Under the pieces are notes generated by a model. The model worked only from the letters and a program-made list of their open reading frames with translations. It did no database searches and was not told where the DNA came from. A stretch of DNA of 64,000 nucleotides, from positions 384,447,461 to 384,511,460 of the forward strand of contig OY856187.1 of NCBI GenBank assembly GCA_963693315.1, read 5' to 3'. Source of the DNA: Diogma glabrata. Its lineage: Eukaryota; Arthropoda; Insecta; Diptera; Cylindrotomidae. The translations under genes were made by a program, and so were the position numbers. This document shows positions 2,642 through 31,220 of the stretch, piece by piece (within the stretch, counting starts at the first letter, position 1; every line of letters starts with the position of its first letter).

Positions 2642-3239
2642 CCTAAGGCTTTTTTAGATTAGATTAGATTATGTTTATTTCTCTTCTTATTAATTTGTTT
2701 ACAAAAGAAATGAATCAAATTTATACATTACATACTATATATCTTATCCTAATACAACTTACTTATAGTTAATTGATACTTGCATAATTAAGTTAGCAAT
2801 TTATTCAAAGTTCCACCGATTCATTTATTACTTAAGAAAACATATATATATGACAATGACTTTTAGTCGTCTGTCACGAGAGGCAAAACAAAATATTACA
2901 TTAATTTACATTCTTTCTTGCAATTCATCTTTCTATTCTATCCCATAATATGACTAATAAAAAATTAATTGTTTCTATACTTAAAGATAACTGTGAATAA
3001 TAAAAAAGGAATAAGGCTTAGCCAATGCTAGTTTACATGTCATTCAGATACTCCCCTATAGTGGGTATATGAAATTCTCCACTTGTAGCAAGATGTACAT
3101 ACTTCTGAGGACGGGAACACAAGTTACCTATCCACAAAAGCTCTGTCGCGGAAGTAGATATTCGTATGTGTAATTTAGCTTTGATTACGCTTCAAGAGCT
3201 TCTGTAGAACTAAACCCATGTGCCCGACCAACCGTATAA

Positions 3240-6200
3240 CTATGCGTTAAAGTCGTTAACTAAATATTGCCTGTATTTGAATGCCTGCGACAAAAACTCA
3301 TTTAAATTTTTCCAGTTTTTCCCATTCAACCAATCCCATAATACTTCTTTCTCGAGGGTTAATTTTCCCAAACATTTTAAACGAAATTCTCCCAGTATTG
3401 GACATACAGCTACAAAGTGATATGTATCTTCCACCTGATTCAAATTACACAAGGAGCAAGTCTTCACTTCTGCACGATAGGTTCGGCTGTTTAAATAAAT
3501 TAAGCCTCCTCTTGCGCGAAATAATGTTCGAATTATACTAAGACTGTGGTTGTCATTAAAGTATACATTGGGTCCGTTGTAACAGAGTTTCCGGTATTCA
3601 CCATGCGAAGATTCTCGAGCTTTTATAATATTTTCCAGGGAGTGCATATCTTTTATCTTTTCTAAAACTGCAGTGGTTTTGGACTCCCATACTTCTTTAT
3701 TAAACTGATTCAAATCAAAATGCACTTCCACTTTTTCAGCGAGACTTCTCCATTCTTGTGTCCAGAATACGTTTTCTTTGATACATTCCATCGCAAGGAA
3801 CTTTGTTAGTCTATTTTCTGGCAGTTGAAGGGTTTTTATGATAAAATCTACATGCAATTTAAAGGTAAATAGAAATAGCTTCGGTGCTCCGGTTTCTAGG
3901 CTAATCATGTAATTTGGCGTGTTTTGCGGAAGTCCAACCAATTTTTTAATGAAAAAACGCTGTAAGGATTCAACTTCTTCGAAATACTGGAAGCCCCATG
4001 TTTGAGCTCCGTAGGATAGTATCGCTCGAGATACTGCATTAAATAATTTATATTTATGCGACACCGGCACAAGTTTTTTGTTGAGAAAATTACTCCACGT
4101 TAGATTGATACTAATTTTCCCCATTTGTAACCTTTTCAAATGCTTTTTCATCGAAAGTTGGGGTGTTATTTGGACTCCTAGATATTTATAACTGTTTACC
4201 ACTTCAATGCTATTGCCCTGGAGATACCATGCTTCATTTGCAGATCTTTTACCCCCTCTGCTGAAAATCATTATTTTAGATTGATCTAGATTAATTGATA
4301 GGTTCCATCTGGTGCAATACTGTTCTAGATTTTGAATCATCTTCTGGAGTGTTTCAGGATTATCAGCTAGTAACACAATGTCGTCTGCATACATTAGAAG
4401 TTTGATATTCCAGTTTACCATTTTAATACCCCCTTCCAAATGTTCATAGATGTCATTTAAAAAAAGTGCGAACAATAGTGGGCTAAGAAGGCAACCTTGT
4501 TTAACACCCATCAATGTTTCAAACCAGTGTGATAAATCCTTACCATTCCAAACTGCTGACATTGTATTATGATATAGTGATTTGAGAATATTAATAAACT
4601 TTGTCGATACCCCCATATTAGACAGTTTATAGAAAAGTGCATCCCTATCAATGCAATCAAAGGCTGCTCGAAAATCCACAAAGAATGCGTAGATTTTTTG
4701 TTTCTTGTGTTTAAGTTTTAATTTGATAATACAGAACAATGAGAAAATGCAATCATTGGTGGAATATCCTCGTCTAAACCCTGCTTGAAATTCATTGAGG
4801 AGCTTTTTCTGAGCAACAAATTTCTCCAATCTGTTCAGAAGAATGCCAGTAAATATTTTCGCGACGGTGTTTATAAAAGAAATACCCCTATAATTTTCGG
4901 CTCTATTTACATCACCCTTCTTGAAAATTGGGAATATTATTGAACGTTTGAATGATTCGGGGGCAGTTCCACTGCGAAATATTTCATTTAGGGTTATTGC
5001 TAATTCATTCAGTAAAGAGATTGGTGCGCACTTATAGAATTCAAACGGGATGCGATCCATACCTGGGGCCTTGTTATTTTTAGCTGACTTAAGTACTGCC
5101 AGTATTTCATTTACCACAATATCTTCGTCTAAAATTACGTTGATTATCGAAGGTTCTGCATATGACGTTGGATTAGTATTAAAAGGGGGATTTAACAAGG
5201 AGCGAAAATGTTGCACTATATGTGTAATATCTAAGTTATTTCCTACTATGAGACCGCGCATTTGCAATTTGCATGCGATAGTCCACCACTCACCAGAATC
5301 TTTAACGTTGGAAAGTCTTCTTGTAAGCGATAGATAATATTCTTGTGTTTTAGTTCTACACATATGCTTGTATTGATAATTTGCTTGCAGCATATACAGG
5401 CTTTTGGTAAGTGCTGTATTTCTTTTTCGGAACAAATTTAATAATCGAAAGCACTTTTTACGGGCCAGCAAGCACTCATAGTCAAACCATTTATTTTTGA
5501 ATTCTACACATCTTTGTTGGATTATTTTTGGGACGGATTTGGTTACGTTATATATGATGTTTGTAATAAACTCAATTGGTTTTGGTTGTAGGTTCGGGTT
5601 GGGATCACGTGATAGTAAATGGTTAATCTTATTGTGGTATTGCTCTATTTTATCGTCAGCCCATTTAATTTTCGGTAAGAGTGTTAATGGTTGATGGGGC
5701 CTTTGTGCTTTATTTCCATATAATTGTAACACAATCGGCATGTGATCAGAGAAATTTTGTGGTACCACCTTGAAATCCTTTACTTCATGTAGCAGATCTA
5801 TTGAGGCGCTGCAAATATCAATTACTGACGAGCCTCTTTCAGCCACAAACGTAAATTCTCCTCCTGTGTCCCCAGGCGTGCGTCCATTTAAAATTACCCC
5901 ACCTATATCATCAACAAAATCTAGGAACTTCTTCCCTCTGCTATCAGTCTTACTATCTTTTGATATCCTTTCCAGGTACAGATTTGGAAATTGTTCAAGA
6001 ATACTGATTTCAAAATTCTGTTCACTACCGATTCGAATATTTAAATCTCTAATTATTATGTAATTTTCAGCCACACCTAAACCAAAAAAGCTTTTTAAAC
6101 ATTCGAAATCACTATCCCATTTGTTACAGTTGATGTATGTAGGCACGAATATCACACTTTGATGGCTGAGTTTGGCTGATAGGACTATTATATTGTTATA

Positions 6201-6512
6201 ATTACCGAATTTTAATTGAAGGACTTCTTTTAGATTTTTTCTGAATCCATATAAACACCCACCACTAGCTCGACCAAAGTTATGAGTTTTTGTTGCAGGC
6301 ACCCATTTCAGTTCAAAATTATTGAAATACTTTTCGTTTTCTTCCGTTACAAAAGTTTCTAAAAGAAAAAAAATTTCATGACTTTTTACGAAACTAAAAA
6401 AACTAGGTGATAAAATCTTATTGACTAAACCCGCTATATTATATGATAAGATATTAATATTACTAGACTGTGAGTTACTTAAATTTAAATTTGATCCACT
6501 TGTATGTAATTG
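3240..6512 (-). CDS. LINE ORF2: AP endonuclease and reverse transcriptase
   Basis: The frame is open for 1090 codons directly after the ORF1 TAG. In order it holds an APE-type endonuclease (SYNIAG about residue 25, LLET about 48, RDLN about 160, SDHM about 250), a reverse transcriptase (FVDFRAAFD about 610, GCLLSPLL, YADD about 708) and a C-terminal Cys-His cluster (CSLCN..H..CP about 1016-1036). It nicks target DNA and copies element RNA from the nick. No ATG lies between the ORF1 stop and the SDHM motif, so no AUG start could include the endonuclease. The usual Gly before DLN is Arg here (RDLN). The conserved N, E, D and H motifs and the YADD are present, so the enzyme looks potentially active. 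A GTG at 6302 is an arbitrary start that would cut off the endonuclease N terminus. Confidence 0.92.
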   Translation of the reverse strand, partial: QLHTSGSNLNLSNSQSSNINILSYNIAGLVNKILSPSFFSFVKSHEIFFLLETFVTEENEKYFNNFELKWVPATKTHNFGRASGGCLYGFRKNLKEVLQLKFGNYNNIIVLSAKLSHQSVIFVPTYINCNKWDSDFECLKSFFGLGVAENYIIIRDLNIRIGSEQNFEISILEQFPNLYLERISKDSKTDSRGKKFLDFVDDIGGVILNGRTPGDTGGEFTFVAERGSSVIDICSASIDLLHEVKDFKVVPQNFSDHMPIVLQLYGNKAQRPHQPLTLLPKIKWADDKIEQYHNKINHLLSRDPNPNLQPKPIEFITNIIYNVTKSVPKIIQQRCVEFKNKWFDYECLLARKKCFRLLNLFRKRNTALTKSLYMLQANYQYKHMCRTKTQEYYLSLTRRLSNVKDSGEWWTIACKLQMRGLIVGNNLDITHIVQHFRSLLNPPFNTNPTSYAEPSIINVILDEDIVVNEILAVLKSAKNNKAPGMDRIPFEFYKCAPISLLNELAITLNEIFRSGTAPESFKRSIIFPIFKKGDVNRAENYRGISFINTVAKIFTGILLNRLEKFVAQKKLLNEFQAGFRRGYSTNDCIFSLFCIIKLKLKHKKQKIYAFFVDFRAAFDCIDRDALFYKLSNMGVSTKFINILKSLYHNTMSAVWNGKDLSHWFETLMGVKQGCLLSPLLFALFLNDIYEHLEGGIKMVNWNIKLLMYADDIVLLADNPETLQKMIQNLEQYCTRWNLSINLDQSKIMIFSRGGKRSANEAWYLQGNSIEVVNSYKYLGVQITPQLSMKKHLKRLQMGKISINLTWSNFLNKKLVPVSHKYKLFNAVSRAILSYGAQTWGFQYFEEVESLQRFFIKKLVGLPQNTPNYMISLETGAPKLFLFTFKLHVDFIIKTLQLPENRLTKFLAMECIKENVFWTQEWRSLAEKVEVHFDLNQFNKEVWESKTTAVLEKIKDMHSLENIIKARESSHGEYRKLCYNGPNVYFNDNHSLSIIRTLFRARGGLIYLNSRTYRAEVKTCSLCNLNQVEDTYHFVAVCPILGEFRLKCLGKLTLEKEVLWDWLNGKNWKNLNEFLSQAFKYRQYLVNDFNA

Positions 6513-6518
6513 CTATTC
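6504..6518 (-). promoter_or_regulatory. Candidate stop-codon readthrough site (UAG CAA UUA)
   Basis: On the minus strand the ORF1/ORF2 junction reads GAA TAG CAA TTA CAT. TAG followed by CAA TTA fits the UAG-CAR-YYA consensus known for efficient readthrough in tobacco mosaic virus and related plant viruses. ORF2 is in the same frame and has no AUG before the endonuclease motifs, so readthrough is the simplest way to make it. A nonsense mutation in an originally fused ORF is the main alternative. Confidence 0.7.
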
Positions 6519-7322
6519 ATCCCTATTTGCCGCATGACCATTTTCCCTTGTAACTAATGAGTTTAAAAATTTGGTGATGTCCACATTTGTCAACACTTTA
6601 AGTTTCTGTATTCCATCGAGACTCCCATGTAATAATGTTTTGTTTTCTGTGTCCATTGTAAATATTTCCTTTTCAATAAATAGCTTATCATTTCTGACCA
6701 TGATTTTGTTCCTACATCCTTGTTTTACGATTTCTTTCCGAATTGCCAGCAATCTTAAGTGTTTTTTCCGATAGTATGGAGTATAGTCTCTGTTTACAGC
6801 CATTCCAGTATCCTTTAATTTTTTGCAGTTCTTCAGGATACGCCCTATATCATCTGGATTGTTAAGTTCTGCTAAAATTTGACGTGTTGTCCTGCCAAGT
6901 TGTGTAGCTTTGGCCATTTCCACATTTTCCACTCCAAGTATGTTCTTCAAGAAATCAAGAACATTCGTTTTCAGATCAGGCACATTTTGCGGGATGACTA
7001 TAAAGATTAAATTCTTTCGCCGATTGAAATTTTTTAATTGCTCAATTTCGTGCTGAAAGGCCTGACTTTGTATAGTAAGCTGTAGCATTTCGTTTTTTAG
7101 ATCTTTGTAATTTTCTTTTATCACATGCACTTCCGATAAGAGATCATTATTGGTTGCTAGATGCTGTAACTTATTATCGATCAATTTGCTGAACTCGGCC
7201 ATAAGTTGATCGAATGACATTGCACCAACTTTCATCGCTTCTCCCATTTGACTTCTTTTATTTGTTTGGGGCTGGCTCTCCGGAGAAGTTTCGTCGATTT
7301 TCCTTTTGTTATTGCCTTTCAT
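6513..7322 (-). CDS. LINE ORF1 protein (coiled coil plus RRM-like RNA-binding region)
   Basis: 269 codons starting at an ATG about 460 nt inside the element. The N-terminal ~30 residues are basic and polar. Residues about 40-100 are heptad-like and rich in L, K, E and Q, consistent with a coiled coil. A segment beginning NFNRRKNLIFIVIPQN (about residue 100) resembles the start of the L1 ORF1p RRM, and the following region with RDYTPYYRKKHLRLLAIRKE resembles the L1-type C-terminal domain. Proteins of this type bind element RNA and act as nucleic-acid chaperones in the RNP. No zinc knuckle is present. The frame ends in GAA TAG and ORF2 continues in the same frame with no AUG, so this protein is probably the abundant product and also the N terminus of a readthrough fusion. 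Domain calls are by eye. Confidence 0.85.
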   Translation of the reverse strand: MKGNNKRKIDETSPESQPQTNKRSQMGEAMKVGAMSFDQLMAEFSKLIDNKLQHLATNNDLLSEVHVIKENYKDLKNEMLQLTIQSQAFQHEIEQLKNFNRRKNLIFIVIPQNVPDLKTNVLDFLKNILGVENVEMAKATQLGRTTRQILAELNNPDDIGRILKNCKKLKDTGMAVNRDYTPYYRKKHLRLLAIRKEIVKQGCRNKIMVRNDKLFIEKEIFTMDTENKTLLHGSLDGIQKLKVLTNVDITKFLNSLVTRENGHAANRDE

Positions 7323-7797
7323 ATGCGAGATTGAATTTGTTATAACTGTTTGTGTTTATGCCACGGCAGTTTTCACAACACTCACAGATATTTGTTGATC
7401 AGAGTATGACTTATTGGCCATACAAATTTACACGGATTTTGTTTGTTTCTCACTTAAATGTTTGTGGTTTTTCAGTTAAATGTATTTTATATTAAAACTG
7501 GATATTTATGTGACCACTTTTTATTTTCTCAAATAATATGTTTGACGTTTAGAAAATAATATAAAAATTTGAGGTTATATCCAATAATTTTTCTTTTGGC
7601 AATATATTACGAATTTTTGATTTTTATTGTTTTTGCTTTCTATTTAATTATTTGCCTTGGTTTCTTATTGACAAAAAACACCACTTTGGTATTGCAAACC
7701 TTCTTAAACTATTAATTTACATTTATTTTTATGAGATAATAAAAAAATAGATGAAGTGCGATCGCAATCAGTGTTGCCAACCCCTAAGGCTTTTTTA

Positions 7798-8077
7798 TTC
7801 GCAGATGGATTCATTTCAAATTTTCACTGCTACTTGATATTAGTGTAACTTAGATTTTAAAGATTTTTCACACAAATCAGATCATAAATAAAAACGTTAT
7901 AAACGAATTAAATTTATTTTTGAATTTAAGCGAACTTCCCCATACAATATGAAATGGACTTGCCCAAGCCATATTTTTTTTTCACAAAAAACGCAAAATT
8001 TTGTAACTTTGTTATTATGTACGACCGTTAAAAGTGTGAAACAATCGTAGATGGAATGAGATTTTTTTTTTAATCTG
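7798..8077. other. AT-rich flank, nothing recognised
   Basis: DNA beside the LINE target site. I see no coding region or structured repeat here. Confidence 0.4.
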
Positions 8078-9780
8078 CTCTAAATTAAAACTTTTTCCGA
8101 AATTCTAAAAATATTGCAAAAATTATTACAAAATCAAAAATACAAACTTTTTCAAATTCCAAAAATATTTCAAAATTAAATTACATTTACGTCATAAAAA
8201 CAGCTAAATTTTTTTTTCCAAAAAATTGGCTAAGAAAATAAATAAAATCATTTTTTGACACACTTGACATCATGTTTTGATAAACTTATAATGCCATAAT
8301 TCTCTATAATAATAATAAAATATCATGTCATAAAAACTATTAATTTAATTTTTTTCTAAAAAAATTGGGTAAAAAATAAATAAAAATCTTTCTTTTGACA
8401 CACTTGACAATATTTTTTTGACAAACTTTTAATGCAATAATCTAGTTTTTGATCTCACATACCAATCCCAACCATCAAGATTTCTCCAAATTTAATGTTT
8501 CTACTCGTAATCACTTAAAATGAACGTTTTTTAAGCCAAAAATATGGAAATTTGCAATTTTTGACACACATGGTGATTTTTTTGACACACTTCCGGTACA
8601 GTTATCGAACACAGCGTCCTCTTGGACCTGTCCCTTGTGTATACCTATTTTTAGAAAAAAAATTTGAAATCCCTCAAGCGTTTTCCCTGCAGCGTAGGCA
8701 ATGACGGACATACAGACATACATTTTTTTTTTGGCGTTTTTAGAATCAGCATCTTCCAAAAATATTGTTAAATTAAATAAAATCAAACTTTTTCAAAATT
8801 CCAAAAATATTTCAAAAATTAGAATAAAATCAAATATTTAAATTTTTTCTAAATTCCAATAATATTTCAAAAATTCTTAAAAATTCAAACTTTTTTCAAA
8901 ATTCTAAAAATATGGCAAAAATTATTACAAAATAAATTAAAACTTTTGCCGAAATCCTAAAAATATTGCGAAAATTATTACAAAATCAAAAATACAAACT
9001 TTTTCAAAATTCCAAAAATATTTCAAAAACTATAAAAAATTAAAAAATTTCCATGTCCAATTTCATTTTAAATTAAATTTACGTCATAAAAACAGCTTAA
9101 TTTTTTTCCCAAAAAATTGGCTAAAAAAAATAAATGAAATCATTTTTTGACACACTTGACATTATTTTTTGACAAACGTATAATGCCATAATTCTCTATA
9201 ATAATAATAAAATATCATGTCATACAAACTATTAATTTAATTTTTTTCTAAAAAAATTGGGTAAAAAATAAATAAAAACCTTCTTTTGACACACCTGACA
9301 ACATTTTTTGACAAACATATAATGCCATAATTTTCAATAATAATAATAAAATTTCATTTCAAACAAACAATTTTATTTTTTCCTAAAAATTGGCTAAAAA
9401 AATAAATAAAAATCTTTTGACACACTTTACAACATTTTTTTGACAAACTTATAATGCAATAATCTAATTTTTGATCTCACATACCAATCCCGACCATCAA
9501 GATTTCTCCAAATTTAATGTTCCTACTCATAATCACTTAAAATGAACATTTTTTAAGCAAAAGCTATGAAAATTTGCTATTTTTGACACACATAATAATT
9601 TTTTTGACGCACTTCCGGTACAGTTATCGAACACAGCGTCCTCTCAGACCTGTCCCTTGTGAATACCTATTTTAAGAAAAAAAATTTTGAAATCCCTCCA
9701 GCCGTTTTCCCTGCAGCGGCCGACAGACAGTCATACATTTTTTTTTGCTTTTTTAGAATCAGTAGGTCCTAAAACGTCGA
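8078..9780. repeat. ~850-bp tandem duplication with internal ~115-bp sub-repeats
   Basis: The block beginning TAAATTAAAACTTTT at 8081 recurs at about 8933. Both copies contain the landmark CCGGTACAGTTATCGAACAC (about 8593 and 9615) and later a Pst I-like CCCTGCAGCG. Inside each copy a unit of about 115 bp (AATTGGCTAA, ATAAAATCATTTTTTGACACAC, TATAATGCCATAATTCTC) is repeated: two units in the first copy and three in the second, so the second has gained a sub-repeat. No protein is supported. This is probably a non-autonomous or satellite-like element; family unknown. Confidence 0.75.
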
Positions 9781-12657
9781 GAAATGCCAAAAAAGTGGGG
9801 GTAAGAATTTCACTTTTGGCTCATGAATGTAATACTTAGATCTTTCAGACCGAAGTAATTAAGTCAAACATATTACGCAGTTGCAGTAAATTAGTTTTGA
9901 ATACAAAATAGTGATTTCAAGCTTTGACTACAGTCAAATATATTAAACATTTATAAAATTAATATACGAAAGTTTTCTTTAAGACAAAATATTATTTTAA
10001 TAAAAGAAAATCGAAGTTTGTTTTATTTGAGTGAATTTTGTGGTTAAAAAACGTTCTTTTCGATTGCACGGCACAACAGAACCATATTTTCCAAAATTAA
10101 AAAAAAAGAATATTTTCTCTGATGATTGAAGGCTTTTACCAACGTTTCATTTCAAAGGAATTTAGATTTCAGTTTTCCACTTTCAATCATTTATCAATTC
10201 TGTTAAAATATTTTAGTTTAAATAACCAATAAATAATCCGGAACTCAACTCAATAAATAACCCGGAATCATTTTCTGCACGTTTCTTGGTTAACTTGTTT
10301 CTTGGTTAACTTTATTGTTTTAAGTTTTGTCTATTCCCCGTAAAAATTTATTTTTCAAATTAGTTAAACTCATTTCTACTTCATTTCATTTAAGTTAAGC
10401 CCATTCAGTTTTTTATATATTACATATATGTAAGTGATGTATCTTTAATTTATTCCAGATATTTTTAAAAAAGCTAACGGTTGATAAAACTTTTACAAAA
10501 CTAAATAAATACACCTAAGAAATGTTTTACATATACAACACTGTGTAGCAAAAAGATTATTCTATTCATAATTCTTCCTAAATTACAACTGTCAAAGTCT
10601 AAACCATCCTTTTATCTTCTTTTTTTTTTCTCAGAACAGGAAAACCGGAAAATTATAAACATAAGTAAAAACCAAAAATATAACGATTTTTCTGAAATTC
10701 ATGTTATAAATTTCTAGTCCCGCCGATTTAATTTTGTATGGATTTAATTAATTTATGCTGTTCTATATATGGCGAACATAAAGTAGTTTACTACAAAATA
10801 AAAGACAAAGCTGGAACCGAAAAATCCCCATCTTCATATAATATAAATATAACGAAAATGTTTTGCGGTAAATAAAGTCGAATGGTAAATGTTATGTGGT
10901 AGAGATTGGTAAATTGGTTTATTTTGTTATTGTTCTTGGTTCTACATTTTTTTTTGTTGCGTTTGTTATTGTTACAGAGATGATAACAATGTTGGACGTT
11001 GCATAATAGAAAAGTTTTTTTTCCGTTACGATATAAATAGAAAATTTTGCAGCATAATTTAACTTTCCTGGGTAAGTTTTCAACGATTTTAGTAAAAATG
11101 TTTTTAAAATGAAAATGGATTATGTAAAATTTGTAGAAAAATGGTTTTGAAAAAAATTCAAATTCTTCTAAATATTTAATGGTCATTACTTTGAATATTC
11201 CGATGACCGCAATATCAATGTTTTTAAAATTTTACATGAATAGTTTTTAAATTGATTGATGTTTTTTCAGCTATTGCAGATATGTAACAGGTCTATATAA
11301 AAATTAAGTTGTTAGGGTTTTAGTACTACCAAAAAGGTAATTTATTACGATTTTTTTATTTACCGAGATAAATAACTACGTTCTCCCCGCATGGAACCAC
11401 ATGCTTAGCCACTCACTATTATTAAAACATTAATCCAAGAAATAAAAACCAACGAAAAGGATAGTGTAAAACTCCCATATCCTTAAAAAATATTTCAACT
11501 GTAGACTGCTTGTAGAAAATAAAAATGGAATTTCTGTTTTCTGTTGTGTTTTTTCATTTTGAATTTAACAACGAAATCATTTATCAAAAATAAAAGGAAA
11601 TTAAAAAGCAAAACAACAAGGAAAATAGTTTACGTTTTCAACAAAACACAACTATTAATTACAAAAATTTTAACACTCATCTGAAACAAGAAATCATTTT
11701 AAATAATAAATTTCGTCGGGTTTGTTACAGAAATTTTTAGAAAATTTAACGTTGTTCGTTTGTAATCTATCTTACTATTATGATGGAGTTTCATTTAATT
11801 TTTTAACACACGAGTTGAGGGTTTTACGCCAATGTAAAAAACACTTAACACAAGAGAAAAACAACCATCGAACAAAGCAAGGTATTATCTACCTATCTCT
11901 ACCACCGTTACAAGATGGCTGAAATAAAATTAAATCTTATTACCTTTTTAGAAATTTGATAAAATAAACAAAAAATGTTGGTGTCTTTGTTTGAGTCAAA
12001 TTCCTTAATTTTTATACAAATATTTCCTGAAAAGATTCAATATCTGAGCTGCATAAACCATCCGGCTCGAAGGACCGATGCTAAATTTTTTAATCTGCAA
12101 TTAAGTAACATGACGTTAAATGATCAGCAAAGGTTGGGCTTAACATTGTTTTATTATTTTGAATTTTTGAGATCAATTAAACACAAGTAAGTACAGAAGT
12201 AATTGGAATTTTTTCAATTCAAAGGTATGGTTTGAAGTTTCTCAGAAAAAAAATTCCACTTCACATTTTACGTGTTTCGAAAGGGATTCGAACCTACCTC
12301 GCTATCGATTACGCCGTTGAGGCGATGACAATTTCAAAGTTGAAATTTTTTCATCACTTATTTATTTTTTACTTAAGTTGAATTTTTCCACTGTTATTAG
12401 TCTCCATATTATGAAAATGTTTTAACATTATATGGGATTTGTTGCATTCAATTTCTAGACAATACTTTGTGTGAATTCATAGAATGGGGAGCATTTCTAT
12501 TCTAATTAACAACCTAAGTCACGATTGTATAGTCAATATTGATTGTTTCCAATCAATGTGAAATCAATGGCTGACACTTGGTCAATTTGTAGTCCTATAT
12601 GTATTAACATTAGCTTACATTAAAATTGTTTTATTATATTCTAGATTACTATAGGTC
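9781..12657. other. AT-rich non-coding DNA, no gene recognised
   Basis: Open frames at 10791-11186 (minus) and 11722-12190 (plus) are AT-driven and lack motifs or credible composition. At 12059-12075 the phrase ATCCGGCTCGAAGGACC matches the arm of the hairpin at 44228-44299. A possible tRNA-like segment at about 12280-12340 is listed separately. Confidence 0.45.
12275..12345 (-). other. tRNA-like / SINE-type fragment with Pol III A and B boxes
   Basis: On the minus strand GGCGTAATCGATAGCGAGG resembles a tRNA D-arm (A box), and GGTTCGAATCC a few bases later matches the B-box consensus. The boxes are too close for a functional tRNA, so the anticodon arm is missing, and the T-stem pairs poorly. 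It could be a decayed SINE head or a tRNA pseudogene. Confidence 0.35.
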
Positions 12658-14402: not shown

Positions 14403-17400
14403 TCATGCTCCATGTAGGAGCGTTGCCAGGCTAATCAGCTTCGAATATTCACCACGGTCATTCGCAACAGCGACATAATTACCATGGCAGCCGATTTTTT
14501 TAAGGTCGTTTATTACGTCAGTCTCCCATTGTAGTCGTGGTCTACCTCGCGGTCGCCCACTCCCTGGGGTACTAACGTACATTTTTCTAATCATTCCAGA
14601 CTGTGAATCGGCTCGTAGAACATGCCCAAACCAAGCAATCCTATTAGAACGGATACAACCTATTATATCAGGACCCTCAAGAAGGTCTCTGATCTCAAAG
14701 TTATATCGGGTTCTATACTCTCCATCGTCTGTCTTAAGTGGACCAAAAATGTAGCGTAATATCTTACGCTCAAATACAGATAAATGCGATTCGTCATTCT
14801 GTGTAAGGGTCCACGTTTGTGATCCATACATCACAACCGGTCTAATCAATGTCTTGTATAACTTGAGCTTGGTGTTAGTTGATACATACGGAGATCCAAG
14901 GAGAGGTTTGATTGAGTAGAAAGTTCGATTACCTGCAGCGATTCGAGCTTTTATATCTGTAAGTATGCTGTTGTTTGAGTCAAGCATTGATCCCAAATAT
15001 TTAAAAGATTCAACTCCCTCAATTCGTTCATCGCCGCACATCAAATCTTTCTTCTCAGACTCTCTTGAAACATTCATATGTTTGGTTTTATTGTAGTTAA
15101 TTTGAAGACCAATATTTCTAGCTCCACTCTCAAGCGACTTAAAAGTCTCACTCATAACAGCTTCACTTCGGCCGAGGATGACAACATCATCAGCGTATGC
15201 AATCATCTGTACTGAGTTTATTGACAAGATATTGTTGTTAGTCGGTAGTTTCTTTTGACGGCACACATATTCCAAGGCTAAATTAAAAAGTATAGGAGAG
15301 ATAGCATCACCTTGTCTTAACCCGGAGTCGACTTTAAAAAACCTTGATATTTCGTTCTCTACTCGTACACAGCATTGAGAGTTCTGTACTGTCATTTTGC
15401 ATAGTGATACCAGTTTACCAGGAATTCCCATTGACACCAGAGCAGACCATAGAGTCTCTCGTTCGAGAGAGTCGTAGGCCTGCCTGAAATCAATGAAGAG
15501 TTGGTGCACTGGTATGTTGAACTCTCGGCACTTTTCCAAAATCATCCTTATCGAGAAAAGTGCATCGGTGGTACCTCGGCCCCGCCGGAAGCCACACTGA
15601 TATTCTCCAAACAGTTGTTCAGCAAAAGGATTGATTTTGGATAGCAAAATGTAAGAAAAGATCTTATATGCTGTGCAGAGTAGAGCGATTCCTCTGTAGT
15701 TTGCACATTGTAGGCGATTACCTTTTTTATGGATTGGTATCAGCATAGCTGTGTTCCAGTCCTGTGGCATGGTTTCAGTCCTCCAGATCATTTGAACAAG
15801 TTCAAACAATCTTAAGGATAGAGTTTCACCACCATGTACAATCATTTCGGATGTTATATCGTCGATACCAGGTGCTTTATTGCATTTTAATTTTGACAGC
15901 GCCGCATCGAATTCCTCTTTGGTGGGTTCGTCTACATGTACCTTTGACGCACGAATAAGCTTTGCTCGTCGCCCGACTTGTTTCTGGTCACTTAAGTTGA
16001 GAAGATTCTCAAAATAAGCGGCCCAAGTATCTAATATATTTTTAAGGTCTACTTGTAGCTCCCCATCTTCGTTTTGAATAGCAGTCGATCTAGTTTGAGG
16101 GCCCTTCTTTAAGGTTTTAACCTGTTGAAAGAAGTTACGCGATTGATGTTCCTTATTGAAGCTTTCAATCTCCTCACACTTTCTCTTCCACCATTCTCTC
16201 TTCGTTCGTCTACATAACTTTGTAACGGCTTGTCTTGCCAGTTTATAGTTCTCCTTCGTGGACCTGGTGTTGCGTCCTTGCAGACATTTCAGATAGCAAT
16301 CTCTTTTGTATTGAATAGCGTCAAGACATGCTTGATCCATCCATGGCTTCTGGGAGTGGTTTTGTGGTCGTCCAAGTATTCCCTCAGCAGCGCTTAAAAC
16401 AGCATCTTTGAGCAAATACCATGACTTATCGACGTCTCCATTAATGGTTTCTGATTTCTCCAATGTTTCGGCAATATGGTTTTGATATCTCTCTTCTGGT
16501 TCTGCATTCTTTAGTGATGAGATGTTAAATCGTTTCCGTTGATTGAATTTCGGAATGCTTGGGTTTGGGAAGTGGAACCTTATTTTAGCACATACAAGAA
16601 AGTGGTCACTTCCAATGTATGCACCTCTAAAGGATCGCACATCCAGAACACTCGAAAAGAAACGTGCTGTAACTAGCACGTGATCAATTTGATTTCGAGT
16701 GTTTCCATTCGGTGAGACCCATGTCTGCTTATGAATCGATCGGTGCGGAAAGAAAGTACTCGCAATTCTCAAATTATTTGATAATGCAAACTCAGTCATT
16801 CTCTCACCATTATCATTCGAATTCAAATGCAGACTGTTGGGGCCTACCACATTTCCATAAGAGATATCTCTTCCAACCTGCCCATTAAAGTCACCAAGAA
16901 CCATAGTGAAGTCGCGTGTTGGTGTTTGTTTCATAACCTCTTCCAGTGCTATGTAGAAATTATCCTTCTCGTCGACGGTTTTAGCTTCAGTAGGTGCATG
17001 CACGGCAATAAGAGAGATATTGTTATATGTACCACGAACACGTAGGTAGCAAATCCTCTCACTGACCGGGATGAATTTCATCACGGCTTCTTGTATGCGT
17101 GCACCAACAAGAAAGCCAGTTCCAAATTCTCTTCGAGAAGGATGACCACTACAGTATAGAGAGTGACTATCCAAATCTTGTTTTCCGATTATTGGCTGTC
17201 TAATTTCTTGCAGAGCTATGATATCCATCCCATACCTCTCAGCCTCTGTTTCTAGACTTATAAGAGCATCAGGAGCGCTCAGGCTGCGCACGTTCCACGT
17301 TCCGATTCGGTAGTCTGGTCCTTTTTCACGTCCAGGTAAAATTCTGTTGTTTTTGTCCGGGTCTGTTTTTCTTTTCTGATTTCCAAATTTAACAAATAAT

Positions 17401-17552
17401 TTTTTTTCCGGGGTTAGGGTGTTAACCTTAGGCCCAGCCCAAATTGTCGTGAATGGGTCCGTTCTGCATCTTAAGGTTACCAGAAACAACCTTTTGACAC
17501 GTTTATATAGCGAGCCGCTTGATCCAAGACAGACGCCCGCTTCAAGCCGCCC
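14403..17552 (-). CDS. RTE ORF2: AP endonuclease-reverse transcriptase
   Basis: The frame opens after a TAG at 17553-17555 and runs 1049 codons. The endonuclease begins with YRIGTWNVRSL (about residue 80), then LQEIRQ, GDFNGQVG and SDHFLV. The RT has APGIDDI, FIDFRQAYDSLE and AYADDVVIL (about residue 785), and the C terminus has IAWFGHVLR and GRPRGRPRLQWETDV, all hallmarks of RTE. There is no RNase H. The first in-frame ATG comes after the WNVRS catalytic motif (YGMDIIALQ), so translation must start at a non-AUG codon or enter from ORF1, which overlaps it in a +1-offset frame. TTG at 17489 is one possible non-AUG start, not an established one. Confidence 0.93.
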   Translation of the reverse strand, partial: GRLEAGVCLGSSGSLYKRVKRLFLVTLRCRTDPFTTIWAGPKVNTLTPEKKLFVKFGNQKRKTDPDKNNRILPGREKGPDYRIGTWNVRSLSAPDALISLETEAERYGMDIIALQEIRQPIIGKQDLDSHSLYCSGHPSRREFGTGFLVGARIQEAVMKFIPVSERICYLRVRGTYNNISLIAVHAPTEAKTVDEKDNFYIALEEVMKQTPTRDFTMVLGDFNGQVGRDISYGNVVGPNSLHLNSNDNGERMTEFALSNNLRIASTFFPHRSIHKQTWVSPNGNTRNQIDHVLVTARFFSSVLDVRSFRGAYIGSDHFLVCAKIRFHFPNPSIPKFNQRKRFNISSLKNAEPEERYQNHIAETLEKSETINGDVDKSWYLLKDAVLSAAEGILGRPQNHSQKPWMDQACLDAIQYKRDCYLKCLQGRNTRSTKENYKLARQAVTKLCRRTKREWWKRKCEEIESFNKEHQSRNFFQQVKTLKKGPQTRSTAIQNEDGELQVDLKNILDTWAAYFENLLNLSDQKQVGRRAKLIRASKVHVDEPTKEEFDAALSKLKCNKAPGIDDITSEMIVHGGETLSLRLFELVQMIWRTETMPQDWNTAMLIPIHKKGNRLQCANYRGIALLCTAYKIFSYILLSKINPFAEQLFGEYQCGFRRGRGTTDALFSIRMILEKCREFNIPVHQLFIDFRQAYDSLERETLWSALVSMGIPGKLVSLCKMTVQNSQCCVRVENEISRFFKVDSGLRQGDAISPILFNLALEYVCRQKKLPTNNNILSINSVQMIAYADDVVILGRSEAVMSETFKSLESGARNIGLQINYNKTKHMNVSRESEKKDLMCGDERIEGVESFKYLGSMLDSNNSILTDIKARIAAGNRTFYSIKPLLGSPYVSTNTKLKLYKTLIRPVVMYGSQTWTLTQNDESHLSVFERKILRYIFGPLKTDDGEYRTRYNFEIRDLLEGPDIIGCIRSNRIAWFGHVLRADSQSGMIRKMYVSTPGSGRPRGRPRLQWETDVINDLKKIGCHGNYVAVANDRGEYSKLISLATLLHGA

Positions 17553-17679
17553 CTACCATGGAGAACAGACGCTTGAGTCGCATTGGTTTTAAGGCGCCAA
17601 TTCGCCATGATGTACCATGATTGACTAAGCAGTTTTTACCCTGCTTGTCTCCGGTACACCAACCTAATTCTGTCAGCAT
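17542..17679 (-). CDS. RTE ORF1: 45-residue upstream ORF
   Basis: It starts at the first ATG of the element, about 48 nt from its 5' end, and encodes 45 residues ending SMVGAA. A short, roughly 43-codon ORF1 overlapping ORF2 was described for C. elegans RTE-1, so position and size fit the family. It overlaps the start of the ORF2 frame by about 11 nt, with ORF2 in +1 relative to it, and ends GCT TGA A. Its function is unknown; it may act in translational coupling to ORF2. Neighbouring open sequence upstream belongs to the interrupted jockey-like gene. Confidence 0.65.
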   Translation of the reverse strand: MLTELGWCTGDKQGKNCLVNHGTSWRIGALKPMRLKRLFSMVGAA

Positions 17680-17727
17680 TAACCAGGCAGCACGGCGTGG
17701 ACGTCGAATTTCGGATTTCGCTACCCC

Positions 17728-19516
17728 GAGTTTAATTAAATATAGTGGGAAATTCAATCTATACATTTTAAACACTATTCCGTCCATCCATACCTTATCG
17801 AAAGCATGTTCCAGGTCTAAAAGTATCATTCCTGTCGATTTCGCATCATTTCTATTTTGTTTGACATGATCCGTAATTCTGTGGATTTGATGTATCGTTG
17901 ATGATTGTTCTCTAAATCCCAGCTGCTGATTTACAAGTATGTTGTTATCTAAAATAAAGGATTGAAATCTATTTTTGATGGAGTATTCAAAAAGTTTTCC
18001 AAGAGTGTTCAGCAGACTTATTGGTCGATAGCTTCGAGATATTGTTGGGTCCTTACCGGGTTTCAAAATTGGGATTATCTTTGCGTGTTTCCATTTGGTT
18101 GGAAAATAGCTCAGTGTGTAACATTTATTAAAGATGATTTGTATAAAGCTAATCCCTTCTATCGGGAGCTTTTTTAATAATAAATTCGGAATTTTATCAA
18201 CCCCAGGCGATTTAAGTGGACGAATGACCTTTAGAATGTCTTATATTTCAGATATTGAAACCAGTTCAATTTCATTGGTATCAGGCTCTTGTGAGATTAT
18301 TTTGGAATTAATTTCATTGCATACAGTATTAACAATCTGTTCATTTGTATCGTTTTTTAAATCAATGTTATGTACGTCTTGAAAGGTTTTGGCTAACTTT
18401 TGAGCTTTTTCCTCATTTAAGAATAATTGGGTTGAGTTAACATCTACTTCATTGTTTTTTAGAGGTGGTATAGGGCGAGGTTTGTTTTTCACTTGTTTTA
18501 CAGTTTTCCAATAACGTTTTGATTGATATTCTAGACTCATCAATTTATTTTGCCATTTTTTATCAATGATCTCTAGGATTTTTTGACGTATAATTTGATT
18601 CAGATTGTTAAGCAACCATTTTTCATGATATAACTTATGTCGTATCCAGCGTCTTCTCACTGTATTCCTTAGTTTTATAAGTTTTAATAAATACTCCGGT
18701 AAAATTAATTTTTCAACAAAGGTGCTCGAAACAAGTGGGGTACTACGGTTTCTCGCTTCTTGAATAGTATCAGTGAGGAATTAAATTGCATTATCTACAT
18801 CATTGATATTTGAAATATTATTTTCAAAAGCATTTAGTTTGGTAGTAACGTAATATGAGTACATATTCCAATCACTTCTGTTATAGTCATATGTTTGAAA
18901 TTGACTATTAGTTTGTGCACACTCAAAATCCAATGAACAGAGAACCGGTAAATGATCAGAACTCAAAGCATTTATTGTTCTAACATTTTCAATGTTATAA
19001 TTAACACACAGTTGTCACTGCAAGTAGTTAAAGTGTTAAGGGTTCTTCCACCTGTATTATTACGAAGGCAGTTCCACGATGTATGTCAACAGTTAAAGTC
19101 ACCACCTATCAGGTAGAGACTTCGATATCTAGTCAATTTAATTAAATCATTCCGAAAGTTTGGATTATTTGAATATGGGCAATATATTGCAAATATTTGT
19201 AAATTTAAACCGTTGTTCAAAGCAATGCTGACACCAATGGATTCAATGCACTGTAAGTTTAAGTCTGAAAGTAAATTATGCTTTATACTTTTTTTAAGAA
19301 GAATTGCTACACCACCTTGATTTTGCAATATGCGATCTCTTCTATATAGTACATAACTTGGAATCGAGAATTGAATACTGGAATTTAAATGGGTTTCACT
19401 AAGAAGTATTATATCTATATTGTAACTTTCTAAAAAATGTATAAGCTCGTGTTTTTTATGTTTAACGCTATTTGCGTTCCATGTACATATTTTGAGTTTT
19501 TCAATTCGCTCCGACA
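17728..19516 (-). pseudogene. Jockey-like ORF2, N-terminal part (endonuclease and start of RT)
   Basis: ORF2 starts with ATG TCG GAG at 19514-19516, overlapping the ORF1 stop by 16 nt in a different frame. The endonuclease starts LKICTWNANSVKHKKHEL, followed by LLSETHL and IGGDFNC; the frame breaks around 19000-19086. It resumes in another frame with SSDHLPVL (about 18960), a linker region, and RT motifs including SYRPISLLN, LGFREQSST and LLDLEHAFDKV up to the RTE insertion at 17728. Stops at about 18781 and 18241 and the frameshift show decay. Order and motifs match jockey-clade ORF2. Confidence 0.85.
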
Positions 19517-20395
19517 TACTTGATGGCGAGACCTGTAATGAATTCAAATTGATCAATTTTAGTTTTGCAATGTCTTAAGCCTTTAACAACTTCAGAAAAA
19601 ATATTTAGCAACTCACGTGTATCAAATAGATCATCGTCTTGCTTGACAATAGCAGATGCACTATGCTTACCATATATTCCTAAATTATTATTTAGAATAT
19701 CAGAAGAATTGCCTGGTTTTACACTTGCTGTTTGTGTTGGTAATGATGGATAATCATCTAAATTAAAGTTCCTAGATGCCTGCTTTACATAATTTCTTGA
19801 ATTGATCTCAGTTTTTAATTTCAAATAATTTTGTCTTGCTGGACATGACACTGCATTAGCCGGATGGTTTCCCTCACAGTTTGCACATTTGTGTTGAGCT
19901 ACATCATCTTTTAGTGGACATTCCATGTCTTCACCATGATCCATACCGCAATAGCGACACTTTTGTTTCATATTACAGTTGGATACACCGTGACCAAACA
20001 TATTGCATCGTACACATTGTGTCGGATTATTTGATTTTGGGTGACATTGTTCCCACTTACATATTACATGGTCTATGCTTCTTAATTTACTTCGAAGATA
20101 ATTTAAGTTAACACTTCCTTTTTTGAAACTAACAAAATATATGGCATCATCTCCATGTCTTAAATGTTTTGGAATAGCTTTTGATATTTTAAGTGGTTGA
20201 AGTTTAAATTCTTTTAAATTCTCTTCAATAACTGATGTATCTATTGACGGCAGACCATACAAAACGAATTTAACAGTTTTGTTTTCTTCAGTAGGATGAG
20301 AAAAGTTTTCTATGTTTGAATCAATTAATTTTTTTTGTATAGTCTGATGATCAGCTAAACTGTATGTAATTATTTTTATAAACAAGCTTATATAT
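19501..20395 (-). pseudogene. Jockey-like ORF1 (gag), C-terminal part with three CCHC knuckles
   Basis: This frame encodes most of a jockey-type nucleocapsid protein. An N-terminal part with KTVKFVLYGLPSID resembles the jockey gag domain before the zinc fingers. Then come three CCHC knuckles: CVRCNMFGHGVSNC, CRYCGMDHGEDMEC and CANCEGNHPANAVSC. Such proteins package element RNA and target telomeric or nuclear sites in flies. It begins at the gypsy insertion (20395); its N-terminal coding part is on the other side at 26797-27007. The two halves are one base out of frame after removing gypsy and one ATAT, so ORF1 also carries a small indel. Confidence 0.85.
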
Positions 20396-21075
20396 TGTAA
20401 CGCCTCTTCGTTGGTTCTTTTAGATTATTGAACAAACACGACAGTAAAAAGACAGATCTTTAGTTAACAGAATCTCAAACTTTATTTATCAACCAGTTAC
20501 AGCAACTTCCGATTTTAATTGCAATAAATTCCAGGGTCTCCAATTTATGTACAATAAACTTCACCGCTTTTCCACAATTTGAATCAATAATATTCGGAAT
20601 CGTAAAATCTGTATTTACTATTCCACTAAGTTCAGATTCTTTCACTATTAGTACCCAGGCTCAAGTACCACCGATTATTCCTTATACTTTCGAATATTTG
20701 TAAAACACTTTTAATTGCAAAATTAAAACTGACTATCTGATATTTTTGTTTGCTTATTTATATCGAAAAATAAATAAATCGAAACTTCTATAATCCACTA
20801 GAAATCAATACTACGTAGTCCGTACATCTGAAATAGGCCACACCTGTTTTCATTCATACTTGCATTTGTATTAGCGAACTCAAATTTAATTTATGCAAAA
20901 ATGTATTAGGTAACTCCTTTTAATTCATTAATGTAAACATTTGTATAACAAATTTAATTTACATTAATTTATGCAATACAATTTGCAATACAAGTAAAAG
21001 ATTGAAAAAAGGAGTTAACTTTTAATTAATGAATGAGTAAATAAAATTAACCCATTCTGGACGAAGTTTATTACA
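20396..21075 (-). repeat. 3' LTR of the gypsy element
   Basis: 680 bp. On the minus strand it starts TGTAATAAACTTCG and ends GGCGTTACA. It matches the other LTR except for an A-run of five versus four near 20896. It contains a TATAAATA (plus 20756-20763) followed about 30 nt later by TCAGT (plus 20728-20732), the TATA-plus-initiator arrangement of insect LTR promoters. Confidence 0.95.
20728..20763 (-). promoter_or_regulatory. LTR core promoter (TATA plus TCAGT initiator), 3' LTR copy
   Basis: Minus-strand GATATAAATAAG with AGTCAGTTTT about 28 nt downstream. The identical pair in the 5' LTR (about 26450-26486) would drive the element. Prediction from spacing and motif only. Confidence 0.6.
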
Positions 21076-21092: not shown

Positions 21093-22270
21093 TTGTTCGT
21101 CCCGAACAATATCAGAGATCGCATTGGTGCTGTTACCTTGGTACGGTGCCAACCTTTGCAGATGTATCACTTTCATCTTGGTACGGGGTCCCTTTTGTAT
21201 GCGGTAGATGACGTCATTAATTCGTTTGATTATTTTATATGGGCCTTCCCAATCTGGCTGCAGCTTGGGTGATCTTCCCTTAGTTCTTCTGGGGTTGTAT
21301 AGCCATACCAATTCTCCTTCTTGAAAACCGCCACTATTTGCATTTATGTCGTACCTGGTTTTCATTTTGTCACTGGCAATCTTAATGTGGTCTCGAACCT
21401 GCTGATGGATTTTATTCATCTTCTCCCTTAGTTGTACCACATAATCTGTTTTCGTGGATACCAGACCTCCAGGGATGCCAAACTCGATGTCACTAGGAAG
21501 ATGAAGTTCTCTTCCGAACATGATATTCGCGTTTCACTTGTCGTATCGTGCACTGCGCTACGATAGGCCATCAAGAATAACGGAAGATCCTTGTCCCAAT
21601 TTCTTTGGTTGGCTTCTACTACCTTTGACAAATGTTCTTCCATGGTTCGGTTGAATCGTTCTACCATACCATCCGACTGCGGGTTCATAGGTGTAGTTCG
21701 TGTTTTTCTAATGCCGAGTGTTCTGCACAGCTCTTCCATCAGTTGAGATTCGAAATTCCTTCCCTGGTCGGTATGCAACTCGAGCGGTGTTCCATATCTG
21801 CAAACCCATTCATTGACTAAGGTTTCCGCGACCGTAACTGCTTCCTGGTTCGGTATTGCATAGGCTTCCGGCCATTTTGTAAAGTAATCAATGACCACCA
21901 TGATGTATTTGTTACCTTTTGTGGTTTCCGGAAATGGCCCTGCGATGTCTATAGCAATTCTCTCCATTGGGGCGCCCACATTGTACTGCTGCATCTCTCC
22001 TCGAGTTCTAGTCTTTGGTCCTTTGCTCGCCGCACAAGTATCACATCGCCGACACCATTGCTCTACGTCGGTTCGATACCTTACCCAATAAAACCTCTCC
22101 CTTACTTTAGCCAGGGTTTTATTGACTCCCAGGTGTCCTCCAGAAATACTTCCATGCAGCTTTCCTAGTACCTCTCCCACTCGACTTGATGGCAACACCA
22201 GCTGTTCCAACACTTTCTTTCCATCAGCAGACTCCCATTTTCTTTTTAGCATCCCGTTGTCCATAATTAG
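21087..22270 (-). pseudogene. pol: Gypsy integrase (pol C-terminal part), one frameshift
   Basis: After a TGA at 22271 the pol frame continues with the RNase H-integrase linker. The HHCC zinc-binding region follows (HGSISGGHLG..H/CDTC), then the DDE core: DIAGPFPE, HTDQGRNFES and GMVERFNRTM. Near 21530 one base appears to be missing, and the next frame continues IMFGRELHLPSD to a C-terminal GPY/F-like module (WEGPYKIIKRINDVIYRI) ending at 21087. The enzyme would insert the cDNA into the genome. Catalytic residues are intact, so the frameshift and the upstream stop are the only visible defects. Confidence 0.92.
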
Positions 22271-24733: not shown

Positions 24734-26088
24734 TTACATTCTCTTCGGATGTGCCCCAACTTCCCACAGTTCCAGCATCTTACTCTGCTAGATCTACTTC
24801 GTTGATTTCGTTCAGGTTTATCTTCCAAACTTTTGACACGCATGATCACTTCATCAAGCGCTGCTTTTATAGGTTCTTCAGTAACTTCCATCTGACGTAC
24901 TCTATCTGAACCGTACGCTCTTTTTCCAGCTTCCATTTGCAGGGCCAATGCTAAGACTTCACCAGGTAGCTTCTTTCCGCTTAGATAAAGCTGGTTTCTC
25001 ATTTGCACATCTCGAAGAGCATTGATGAATGTATCAGCTGCCAGTTCGTCTCGGTGTTCAGCGTTATAATTCGGATATGATAGATTAACCAGTCTGACAA
25101 TGTCAGCCTCTAATTCTTGCAAGGTTTCGCTGACTCCTTGTTTTCGTGTCTTGAGCTGCATGCGATGGAGAGCTTGCATATGGCTTTCCCCATATCTTAC
25201 TTCTAAGGCCTCCATTATCTTGCTGTAATCACGCTCTGTCGCTGATAGTGTCTGTAAAATTTCAGCAGCAGGTCCCTTCAATGCCAATATAAGCGCGTTT
25301 GCTTTTTGCTGGTGATCAACTCCAGTTGTTGCTATCTCAAATTGCATCTTAAATATCTGATACGATGTAGATCCATCAAATGCGGGTGTTTTCACTCTAG
25401 CTGGAGCTGAAGTAGTTGATGGATTGATCATGTTACCTGACTTTACTTGTGCTATTTCTTGGCGGAATTCACTCGAAAGATTGCGTAATTTCTCTTCATG
25501 TTCCTCGGTAATTTTCCGCAGCTCCTTTTCCACGTTGTTGATTTTAACCTCCGCACTGGATAAACGTGACTCGATTACTTCACGTAGACTTTCTTGCTTC
25601 GCCATCATATCAGCAAACTGTTGTCGTTGCTCTACTTTTTGTTCTGCTGCCAGAACTTTTTGTTCTGCTGCCTGTTTCTCTTGTCCGGCCATCAGATCAG
25701 CAAGTTGTTGTTGTTGGTTGTTTCCTTGTTTGGCCATCATATCAGCAAGTTGTTGTTGTTGCTCTACTTTTTGTTCCGCTGCCAGTTTCTCTTGTCGGGC
25801 TATCAGATTGTTTCCTTGTTTGGCCATCATATCAGCAAATTGTTGTTGCTGCTGTGCCATCATTTCTTTCATCAACGCCATCATCGGATCAATTGCTGGG
25901 GCACTCTGAGCCGGAGCTTCTTCCTGCTCTATTTCTATGACCTCTGTGTTTTGGCCTGCTTCTTCTAAAACTTTACGCAGCCGGAATGCAAGTTCTGCCT
26001 TCGTTCCATGGATTGGAGCATTCCTTTTCTTCAACTCATCCTTAAGCTGGGTCTGGCTGAGATCACTAATACTTACTGTCTTGACCAT
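24682..26088 (-). CDS. gag: Gypsy gag with N-terminal SAP domain and Q-rich repeats
   Basis: 468 codons from the ATG just inside the primer site; the open frame extends further up into the LTR but that part is not needed. Residues about 5-42 (SISDLSQTQLKDELKKRN..GTKAELAFRLRKVL) fit a SAP DNA-binding motif. Residues about 75-165 repeat (F/L)ADMMAKQ and AAEQKVEQ blocks rich in Q, then a coiled-coil stretch leads to a capsid-like region (TPAFDGSTSYQIFKMQFE). One CCHC knuckle, CWNCGKLGHIRREC, ends the protein. Gag forms the particle around the RNA. The frame is intact. The SAP motif at the N terminus is the unusual part; capsid fold is inferred from position. Confidence 0.93.
   Translation of the reverse strand: MVKTVSISDLSQTQLKDELKKRNAPIHGTKAELAFRLRKVLEEAGQNTEVIEIEQEEAPAQSAPAIDPMMALMKEMMAQQQQQFADMMAKQGNNLIARQEKLAAEQKVEQQQQLADMMAKQGNNQQQQLADLMAGQEKQAAEQKVLAAEQKVEQRQQFADMMAKQESLREVIESRLSSAEVKINNVEKELRKITEEHEEKLRNLSSEFRQEIAQVKSGNMINPSTTSAPARVKTPAFDGSTSYQIFKMQFEIATTGVDHQQKANALILALKGPAAEILQTLSATERDYSKIMEALEVRYGESHMQALHRMQLKTRKQGVSETLQELEADIVRLVNLSYPNYNAEHRDELAADTFINALRDVQMRNQLYLSGKKLPGEVLALALQMEAGKRAYGSDRVRQMEVTEEPIKAALDEVIMRVKSLEDKPERNQRSRSSRVRCWNCGKLGHIRRECKWEPHPEDRGRVPDSGN
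24685..24691 (-). promoter_or_regulatory. -1 ribosomal frameshift heptamer GGGAAAC
   Basis: In the gag frame the end reads TC G GGA AAC TAG, a canonical X XXY YYZ slippery site directly before the stop. Slipping back one base gives GGG AAA CTA GAT, which is the pol frame. The same heptamer stands at the gag/pol overlap of the second gypsy element. Confidence 0.75.
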
Positions 26089-26098
26089 TGTTTCAATA

Positions 26099-26116
26099 AT
26101 CCCACTTCTGACACCA
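26099..26116 (-). promoter_or_regulatory. Primer binding site, tRNA-Leu
   Basis: One base after the 5' LTR the minus strand reads TGGTGTCAGAAGTGGGAT, 18 nt complementary to a 3' end ATCCCACTTCTGACACCA. From memory this is the acceptor end of an insect tRNA-Leu whose 5' end is GTCAGGATGG. Confidence 0.75.
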
Positions 26117-26117
26117 C

Positions 26118-30163: not shown

Positions 30164-31220
<1,057 letters not shown>

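Follow-up and report, generated by a model that had tools for sequence, protein, structure and literature searches.

The window, by which we refer to the whole 64-kb stretch of DNA analyzed here, harbors a full-length LINE on its minus strand (2657..7782, ~5126 bp), whose 5′ end (7782) and 3′ end (2657) were placed by means of flanking direct repeats and the alignment to other genomic copies. The element is framed by a target-site duplication, an exact 15-nt direct repeat (CCTAAGGCTTTTTTA) found on its 5′ side (7783..7797) and on its 3′ side (2642..2656), and it ends in a tail of TAATC repeats (2657..2675). Behind a 5′ UTR reaching from the element start to the first ATG of ORF1 (7323..7782), ORF1 (6516..7322) comprises 269 codons counted from this ATG (7322) and has NRDE as its C-terminal residues. 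A TAG codon (6513..6515), the proposed readthrough stop, separates ORF1 from the ORF2 frame and is directly followed by CAA TTA (6507..6512). The ORF2 frame (3243..6512; 1090 codons, terminal TAG at 3240-3242) encodes an APE-type endonuclease and a reverse transcriptase, and starts with an open, ATG-free linker of codons 1-21 (6450..6512; QLHTSGSNLNLSNSQSSNINI, also given as QLHTSGSNLNLS).

Within ORF2, the reverse transcriptase domain (4167..4922; PF00078, E 3.7e-38) contains the motif YADD at 4380-4391, and the structures of L1 and R2 match the protein across this part. The endonuclease domain PF14529 was matched with an E-value of 4e-05, weaker than its curated cut-off, and the alignment revealed that the endonuclease motifs are common to relatives. 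With an endonuclease and a reverse transcriptase in ORF2, a target-site duplication and a simple 3′ tail, the element is an APE-type LINE; a protein search with ORF1 gave no match. Judging from its sequence, the window copy itself may be impaired and is perhaps inactive: 12 nt are absent in frame from the endonuclease (at 6335..6338; four residues present in the copies L039, L040 and L042), and an Arg (6048..6050, codon 155) replaces the Gly of aligned relatives at an otherwise nearly invariant position. In seven other copies tried by script, target-site duplications of 14 bp (L044) and of only 7 bp (L041) were found, and five copies gave none.

The stop junction of the window copy

According to the first-pass annotation, ORF1 and ORF2 share one frame that is split by GAA TAG CAA TTA, and no ATG occurs between this stop and the SDHM motif of the endonuclease (5739..5750). 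The first point was read directly on the minus strand and the second holds as well, the first in-frame ATG of ORF2 being codon 258, the M of SDHM. The endonuclease N and E motifs had further been placed within 50 codons of the stop, which applies to SYN (6438..6446, codons 23-25) but not to the Glu of LLET (6357..6359), which is codon 52 and lies two codons beyond. Two features of type I readthrough are found at this site, a UAG directly followed by CARYYA (TAG CAATTA at 6515-6507) and a conserved in-frame downstream ORF lacking a start codon of its own. CARYYA after TAG is rare by composition: counting the two strands of the 64-kb window together, only 4 of 1572 TAGs are followed by it, the ORF1-ORF2 junction being one of the four. 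In the two UTRs of the element, 76 of the 911 22-codon frames were free of stops. The last 30 nt of ORF1 hold three ATGs in the +1 frame (one in GGGATGAATAG), all of which reach a TAA after 11 codons. An AUG at the ORF1 stop that would open ORF2 in the manner of SART1 is absent in the window; the ATG in ATGAATAG is in the +1 frame and its frame ends after 11 codons.

A local contrast is provided by a jockey-like LINE with a broken ORF2 (17542-20424, minus strand), which features the usual ATG layout: its ORF2 has an ATG that lies 10 codons upstream of the endonuclease motif and, in a different frame, overlaps the stop of ORF1. Directly adjoining this element is a further endonuclease-reverse transcriptase LINE (14403-17552, minus strand) with an open frame of 1049 codons, the first ATG of which is codon 109, within the endonuclease. 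Two LTR-retrotransposon-like stretches (21428-26181 and 57625-61082, minus strand; Gypsy-like by eye) display long open gag- and pol-like frames. The window also contains ~750 bp of CA/TG dinucleotide repeat (30440-31190) and an AT-rich block (8000-9800) with near-duplicate segments, e.g., GAACACAGCGTCCTC at ~8610 and ~9630.

Copies of the same family in the genome

A 616-bp query around the junction gave 26 matches in the assembly from which the window stems (1.33 Gb), and 20 regions were retrieved. GAA TAG CAA TTA is kept in all 10 family copies bearing the junction (window included; 88-97% identity), a count that leaves out four copies with later element parts only as well as L052, which consists of the start and later parts without the junction. 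None of the 10 copies contains an in-frame ATG in the linker, and the frame is kept even in L044, the linker of which carries a 6-nt deletion. In L039, L040 and L042, the TAG is flanked by an uninterrupted ORF1 (280 codons) and an uninterrupted ORF2 (1094 codons). Comparison of the window ORF2 with these three copies yielded dN/dS values of 0.28, 0.29 and 0.34, respectively, so that the frame 3′ of the stop is selected as protein. Values against L043, L044 and L046 were 0.73, 0.57 and 0.77, and two of these copies (L043 and L046) are decayed or align poorly; the ORF1 values against the closest copies exceeded 1, but are based on one to two synonymous changes, which are too few to read. Across both ORFs, L039 and L040 differ by one synonymous change and are located on different contigs, which argues that this young family was recently mobile with the TAG already present.

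Related junctions in diverged families and other species

To what extent this layout is found beyond the window family was followed with the first 300 residues of ORF2 as protein query of the same genome, giving 131 matches among 717 candidates, of which only the best were scored. Junctions were read in 70 cases, comprising 65 of the 131 protein matches (64 and L058) and five regions from the nucleotide search (L046, L053, L054, L056 and L057). A stop followed by strict CARYYA was present in 45 of them and TAG CAA ATA in another seven. In four junctions the stop is in the endonuclease frame and is not followed by CAR (TAG GATTTA in L121, TGA GAN in L058, L114 and L116). Three others read TAG GAA TTA and are disturbed in their frame (L094, L096 and L097), and a further three have an altered stop or none (L056, L080 and L086). 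The remaining eight were truncated, decayed or too short to be informative (L066, L067, L069, L071, L100, L111, L115 and L120).

Grouping by eye, which excluded the disturbed TAG GAA TTA group, resulted in 21 junction types: 15 with UAG or UAA and CARYYA, two with UAG CAA AUA, and four without CAR (TAG GATTTA, TGA GAT, TGA GAG and TGA GAA). As CAAATA fits CARNBA, CAR after the stop is counted in 17 of the 21 types; these counts have to be read bearing in mind that the families are not independent and were partly grouped by the stop-context signal itself. While the shared C, A and final A of the 17 CAR types are given by definition, the membership of 17 out of 21 types is not. Over the 15 nt 5′ of the stop, the same 17 types hold ~0.4 bit per position on average. 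Along the same lines, the position of the stop in the endonuclease frame results from the way in which the junctions were found, whereas the identity of the preceding frame as ORF1 is not a matter of construction. In six families the ORF1s are homologous, with 32-49% identity (32-39% for the window family vs. the five others) and alignments ending at most 16 residues from the stop; the remaining families have an open frame of 22 to 104 codons 5′ of the stop, mostly extending to the edge of the sequence stretch read.

For 18 types the stretch reaches the YN motif of the endonuclease, and in 17 of these the frame is open from the stop up to the motif, the exception being the L092 copy with one further TAA. 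In none of the 17 open types does an in-frame ATG occur before the motif, which agrees with the view of the first-pass annotation that no AUG supplies the N terminus of the endonuclease. The window LINE belongs to a set of families, all from a single large genome, that lack an ORF2 start codon. Linkers range from 8 to 24 codons across the types (21 codons in the translation of L058) and are all in frame, pointing to several length changes without loss of frame. The endonucleases of eight families share 37-60% identity, from which the families can be considered old.

Some of the junctions deviate in ways of their own. In L058, L114 and L116, ORF1 ends with TGA GAN, the stop is in the ORF2 frame and GCYGTCTGT follows a few codons 3′; L058 and L114 have no ATG and an open frame up to the YN motif. 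In L094, L096 and L097, TAG GAA TTA is followed by TTGTCTGTCGG and a long A tract, whose variable length shifts the frame; this family is decayed, or the A tract might be slippery. Junctions without CAR and the disturbed ones could represent either copies that are off or copies driven by something else. Contig C2 holds none of the 131 listed protein matches, some of which are located on C1, C3, C4, C5 and many small contigs; given that only the best candidates were scored, this absence may have little meaning.

A second shared stretch was observed in 14 of the 21 types, in which GTCTGY is found 10-18 nt 3′ of the stop, seven times as GCCGTCTGY. Read in frame, it encodes V-C and the longer form A-V-C; it may act either as RNA or as peptide. 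The stretch is absent in the window family and in L053, altered in L105, L109, L110, L119 and L121, and retained in all three TGA types without CAR. With respect to a local stimulatory RNA structure on the 3′ side, the window junction folds no better than shuffled sequences (z 0.86), no base pairs emerged from two consensus folds around the stop, and eight families folded one by one gave z-scores of -0.57 or higher. One alignment of five families produced a long-range consensus fold (-8.76 kcal/mol vs. -0.33 for shuffled columns) pairing the stop region with a site ~250 nt 3′. This fold was set aside, albeit not disproved, because most of the pairs are G-U, constant or broken, and because they extend into the codons of a conserved protein motif.

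Two protein searches gave 123 relatives from other sources, for 66 of which N termini were listed. About 36 of the 66 start 3′ of the endonuclease N motif (P0015, P0071, P0084 and P0095 not counted), including the NCBI models P0080 and P0094 from Haematobia irritans and P0099 from Stomoxys calcitrans. Such late starts are as expected if no AUG is present upstream, and truncated or decayed sequences would look the same. In four relatives the first residues are MC; these might correspond to V-C of the shared stretch, the V being a GTG used as start codon. Readthrough is not universal among the relatives, as an M immediately precedes the endonuclease motif in P0033 (Glossina) and P0061, and ORF1 and ORF2 of P0015 form a single open frame of 1388 residues.

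In a tree that took in only unnamed relatives, without a reference set of named LINE clades (Jockey, CR1, L2), the CAR and TGA families are found among relatives of other origin: P0004 is the neighbor of the TGA family L058 (support 99/98), and P0001 and P0002 group with six CAR families (96/95). The best-scoring named relatives come from flies (Teleopsis, Glossina, Haematobia and Stomoxys) and a pseudoscorpion, and no relatives were found among viral contigs. A search of genome contigs gave 18 distant matches (L001-L018) inside bacterial assemblies, LINE-like contigs in MAGs and symbiont bins that probably represent contamination from animals or other eukaryotes; the ORFs of seven were inspected and have no bearing on the junction.

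Probable readthrough of the ORF1 stop and its alternatives

Taken together, ORF2 is very probably made as an ORF1-ORF2 fusion by programmed readthrough of the ORF1 stop, of the type described for tobacco mosaic virus (TMV), a strategy familiar above all from viruses. The layout and its conservation, the presence of the hexamer in diverged families and the selection acting on ORF2 are directly visible in the DNA, and the missing AUG, the retained stop, the retained frame and the CARYYA context in combination make programmed readthrough the best explanation. In the proposed mechanism, most ribosomes finishing ORF1 would stop at the UAG (UAA in some families) and release the ORF1 protein. A minority would insert an amino acid at the stop, aided by the TMV-like type I hexamer CAAUUA on the 3′ side, and would proceed across the short linker to translate the endonuclease and the reverse transcriptase. 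The product would be a low-abundance ORF1-ORF2 fusion, comparable to Gag-Pol of murine leukemia virus (MuLV). Stop suppression as the origin of such a fusion had already been proposed in the first-pass annotation; we infer it strongly from the conservation of the junction and the missing AUG. The low rate of readthrough and the role of the fusion as active enzyme are putative. Speaking against this reading are the four types without CAR, the disturbed TAG GAA TTA group, the three places with a changed or lost stop, the higher ORF2 dN/dS against L043, L044 and L046, the relatives P0033, P0061 and P0015, the possible impairment of the window copy, and a negative reporter result for the LTR element Tca2.

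The strongest rival, albeit an unlikely one, is a termination-reinitiation process without AUG, in which translation would restart after ORF1 at a non-AUG codon of the linker (e.g., AUU), perhaps guided by GUCUGY. Unconventional initiation of ORF2 is known for the LINEs SART1 and L1 (PMC5972666; PMC2881922, in the parts available), every one of the 10 window-family copies has an AUU ahead of the endonuclease, and GTCTGY, found 3′ of the stop in the 14 types mentioned above, occurs also in the three TGA types that have no CAR. Such a restart needs no shared frame, yet the frame is kept across all linkers of 8-24 codons; it moreover leaves the CAR after the stop in 17 types unexplained, and inspection by eye revealed no one non-AUG codon that recurs at a constant position in the linkers of the 21 types. 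Less probable still is the removal of the stop from a fraction of the messages, either by splicing or another alteration of the RNA or by an in-frame bypass of the ribosome. The same fusion would be expected here, with the frame likewise kept, but neither process predicts CAR-N-B-A right after the stop in 17 of the 21 types.

Finally, the TAG, the missing start codon or a frameshift could be a defect confined to one dead copy, with a merely coincidental hexamer, an explanation that we regard as highly improbable. The window copy indeed differs from its sisters at two other sites, a +1-frame ATG overlaps the stop, and an M is present near the endonuclease of some relatives. The first-pass annotation had named a private TAG as the result that would speak against its proposal, to be checked by aligning copies from the same genome; this alignment refutes a private TAG, since the codon is common to all 10 junction-bearing copies. 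These copies also share the frame and the ATG-free linker, and junctions of this kind occur in diverged families. Three specific candidates were dropped on reading the other family copies: a private nonsense mutation (the same TAG is present), a private ATT in place of an ATG start codon, and a frameshift of 1 nt relative to the +1-frame ATG (the same frame is present).

Moloney MuLV possesses LTRs and a protease. Like the LINE, it has an in-frame UAG between a first protein and the reverse transcriptase, and its Gag-Pol fusion is made by readthrough with the help of a 3′ pseudoknot (PMC5009743), whereas no local structure was found at the LINE junctions. In the replicase gene of TMV, UAG and CARYYA stand between two in-frame parts, the second including the polymerase, and the type I consensus is UAG CAR YYA (PMC3542737). 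According to the parts of these studies that were available, CARYYA is also active on UGA and UAA (PMC3542737), UAG with the TMV hexamer CAAUUA served as readthrough cassette in HeLa cells, the hexamer being used in yeast as well (PMC4446449), and CARNBA supports readthrough in yeast (PMC4132726). In contrast to TMV, the families described here are retrotransposons of an animal genome, several of them with UAA and two with CAAAUA, most types add the conserved GUCUGY 10-18 nt 3′ of the stop, and their readthrough is putative.

Among LINEs, SART1 of the silkworm likewise has two ORFs and couples translation of ORF2 to ORF1, in this case via UAAUG (PMC5972666), the AUG of which overlaps the stop, whereas the window LINE has no AUG near the stop that opens the ORF2 frame. 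L1Tc and other LINEs with 2A StopGo sequences also obtain their proteins by recoding in one frame (PMC5972666), but 2A separates the products without a stop codon; by eye, no 2A motif was seen in the linkers of the 21 junction types. The fungal copia elements Tca2 and VdLTRE5 resemble the LINE in having an in-frame stop between gag and pol and differ in being LTR elements without CARYYA, as far as the sources cover them; in a reporter test described for the gag-pol stop of Tca2, no readthrough was obtained (PMC7175516, in part). Among the matches listed from the open-licence literature, none described a LINE whose ORF1 stop is read through.

A broader proposal, which we put forward tentatively and as falling somewhat short of an even chance, is that a fly-type branch of LINEs replaced initiation of ORF2 by programmed readthrough with a signal in two parts. 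These would be the stop with CAR-N-B-A and, 10-18 nt 3′, the primary-sequence element GUCUGY (often GCCGUCUGY), which in some families would serve UGA-GA stops without CAR. The layout would then extend to the horn fly and the stable fly, whose annotated relatives begin inside the endonuclease. If true as second element, GUCUGY would represent a new cis signal for readthrough.

How LINEs synthesize their second protein is a long-standing question, for which the reviews, in the parts available, offer reinitiation, overlapping stop-start codons (stop-start coupling) and 2A as answers (PMC5972666; PMC2881922). LINE families with a leaky stop would join retroviruses and tobamoviruses in setting the ratio of a first protein to the polymerase in this way, and readthrough would in addition link ORF1 physically to ORF2. 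Gene models of such elements in which the N terminus of the endonuclease is missing might likewise be accounted for by the readthrough layout, and the junction variants represent a natural sequence set for dissecting readthrough in animal cells.
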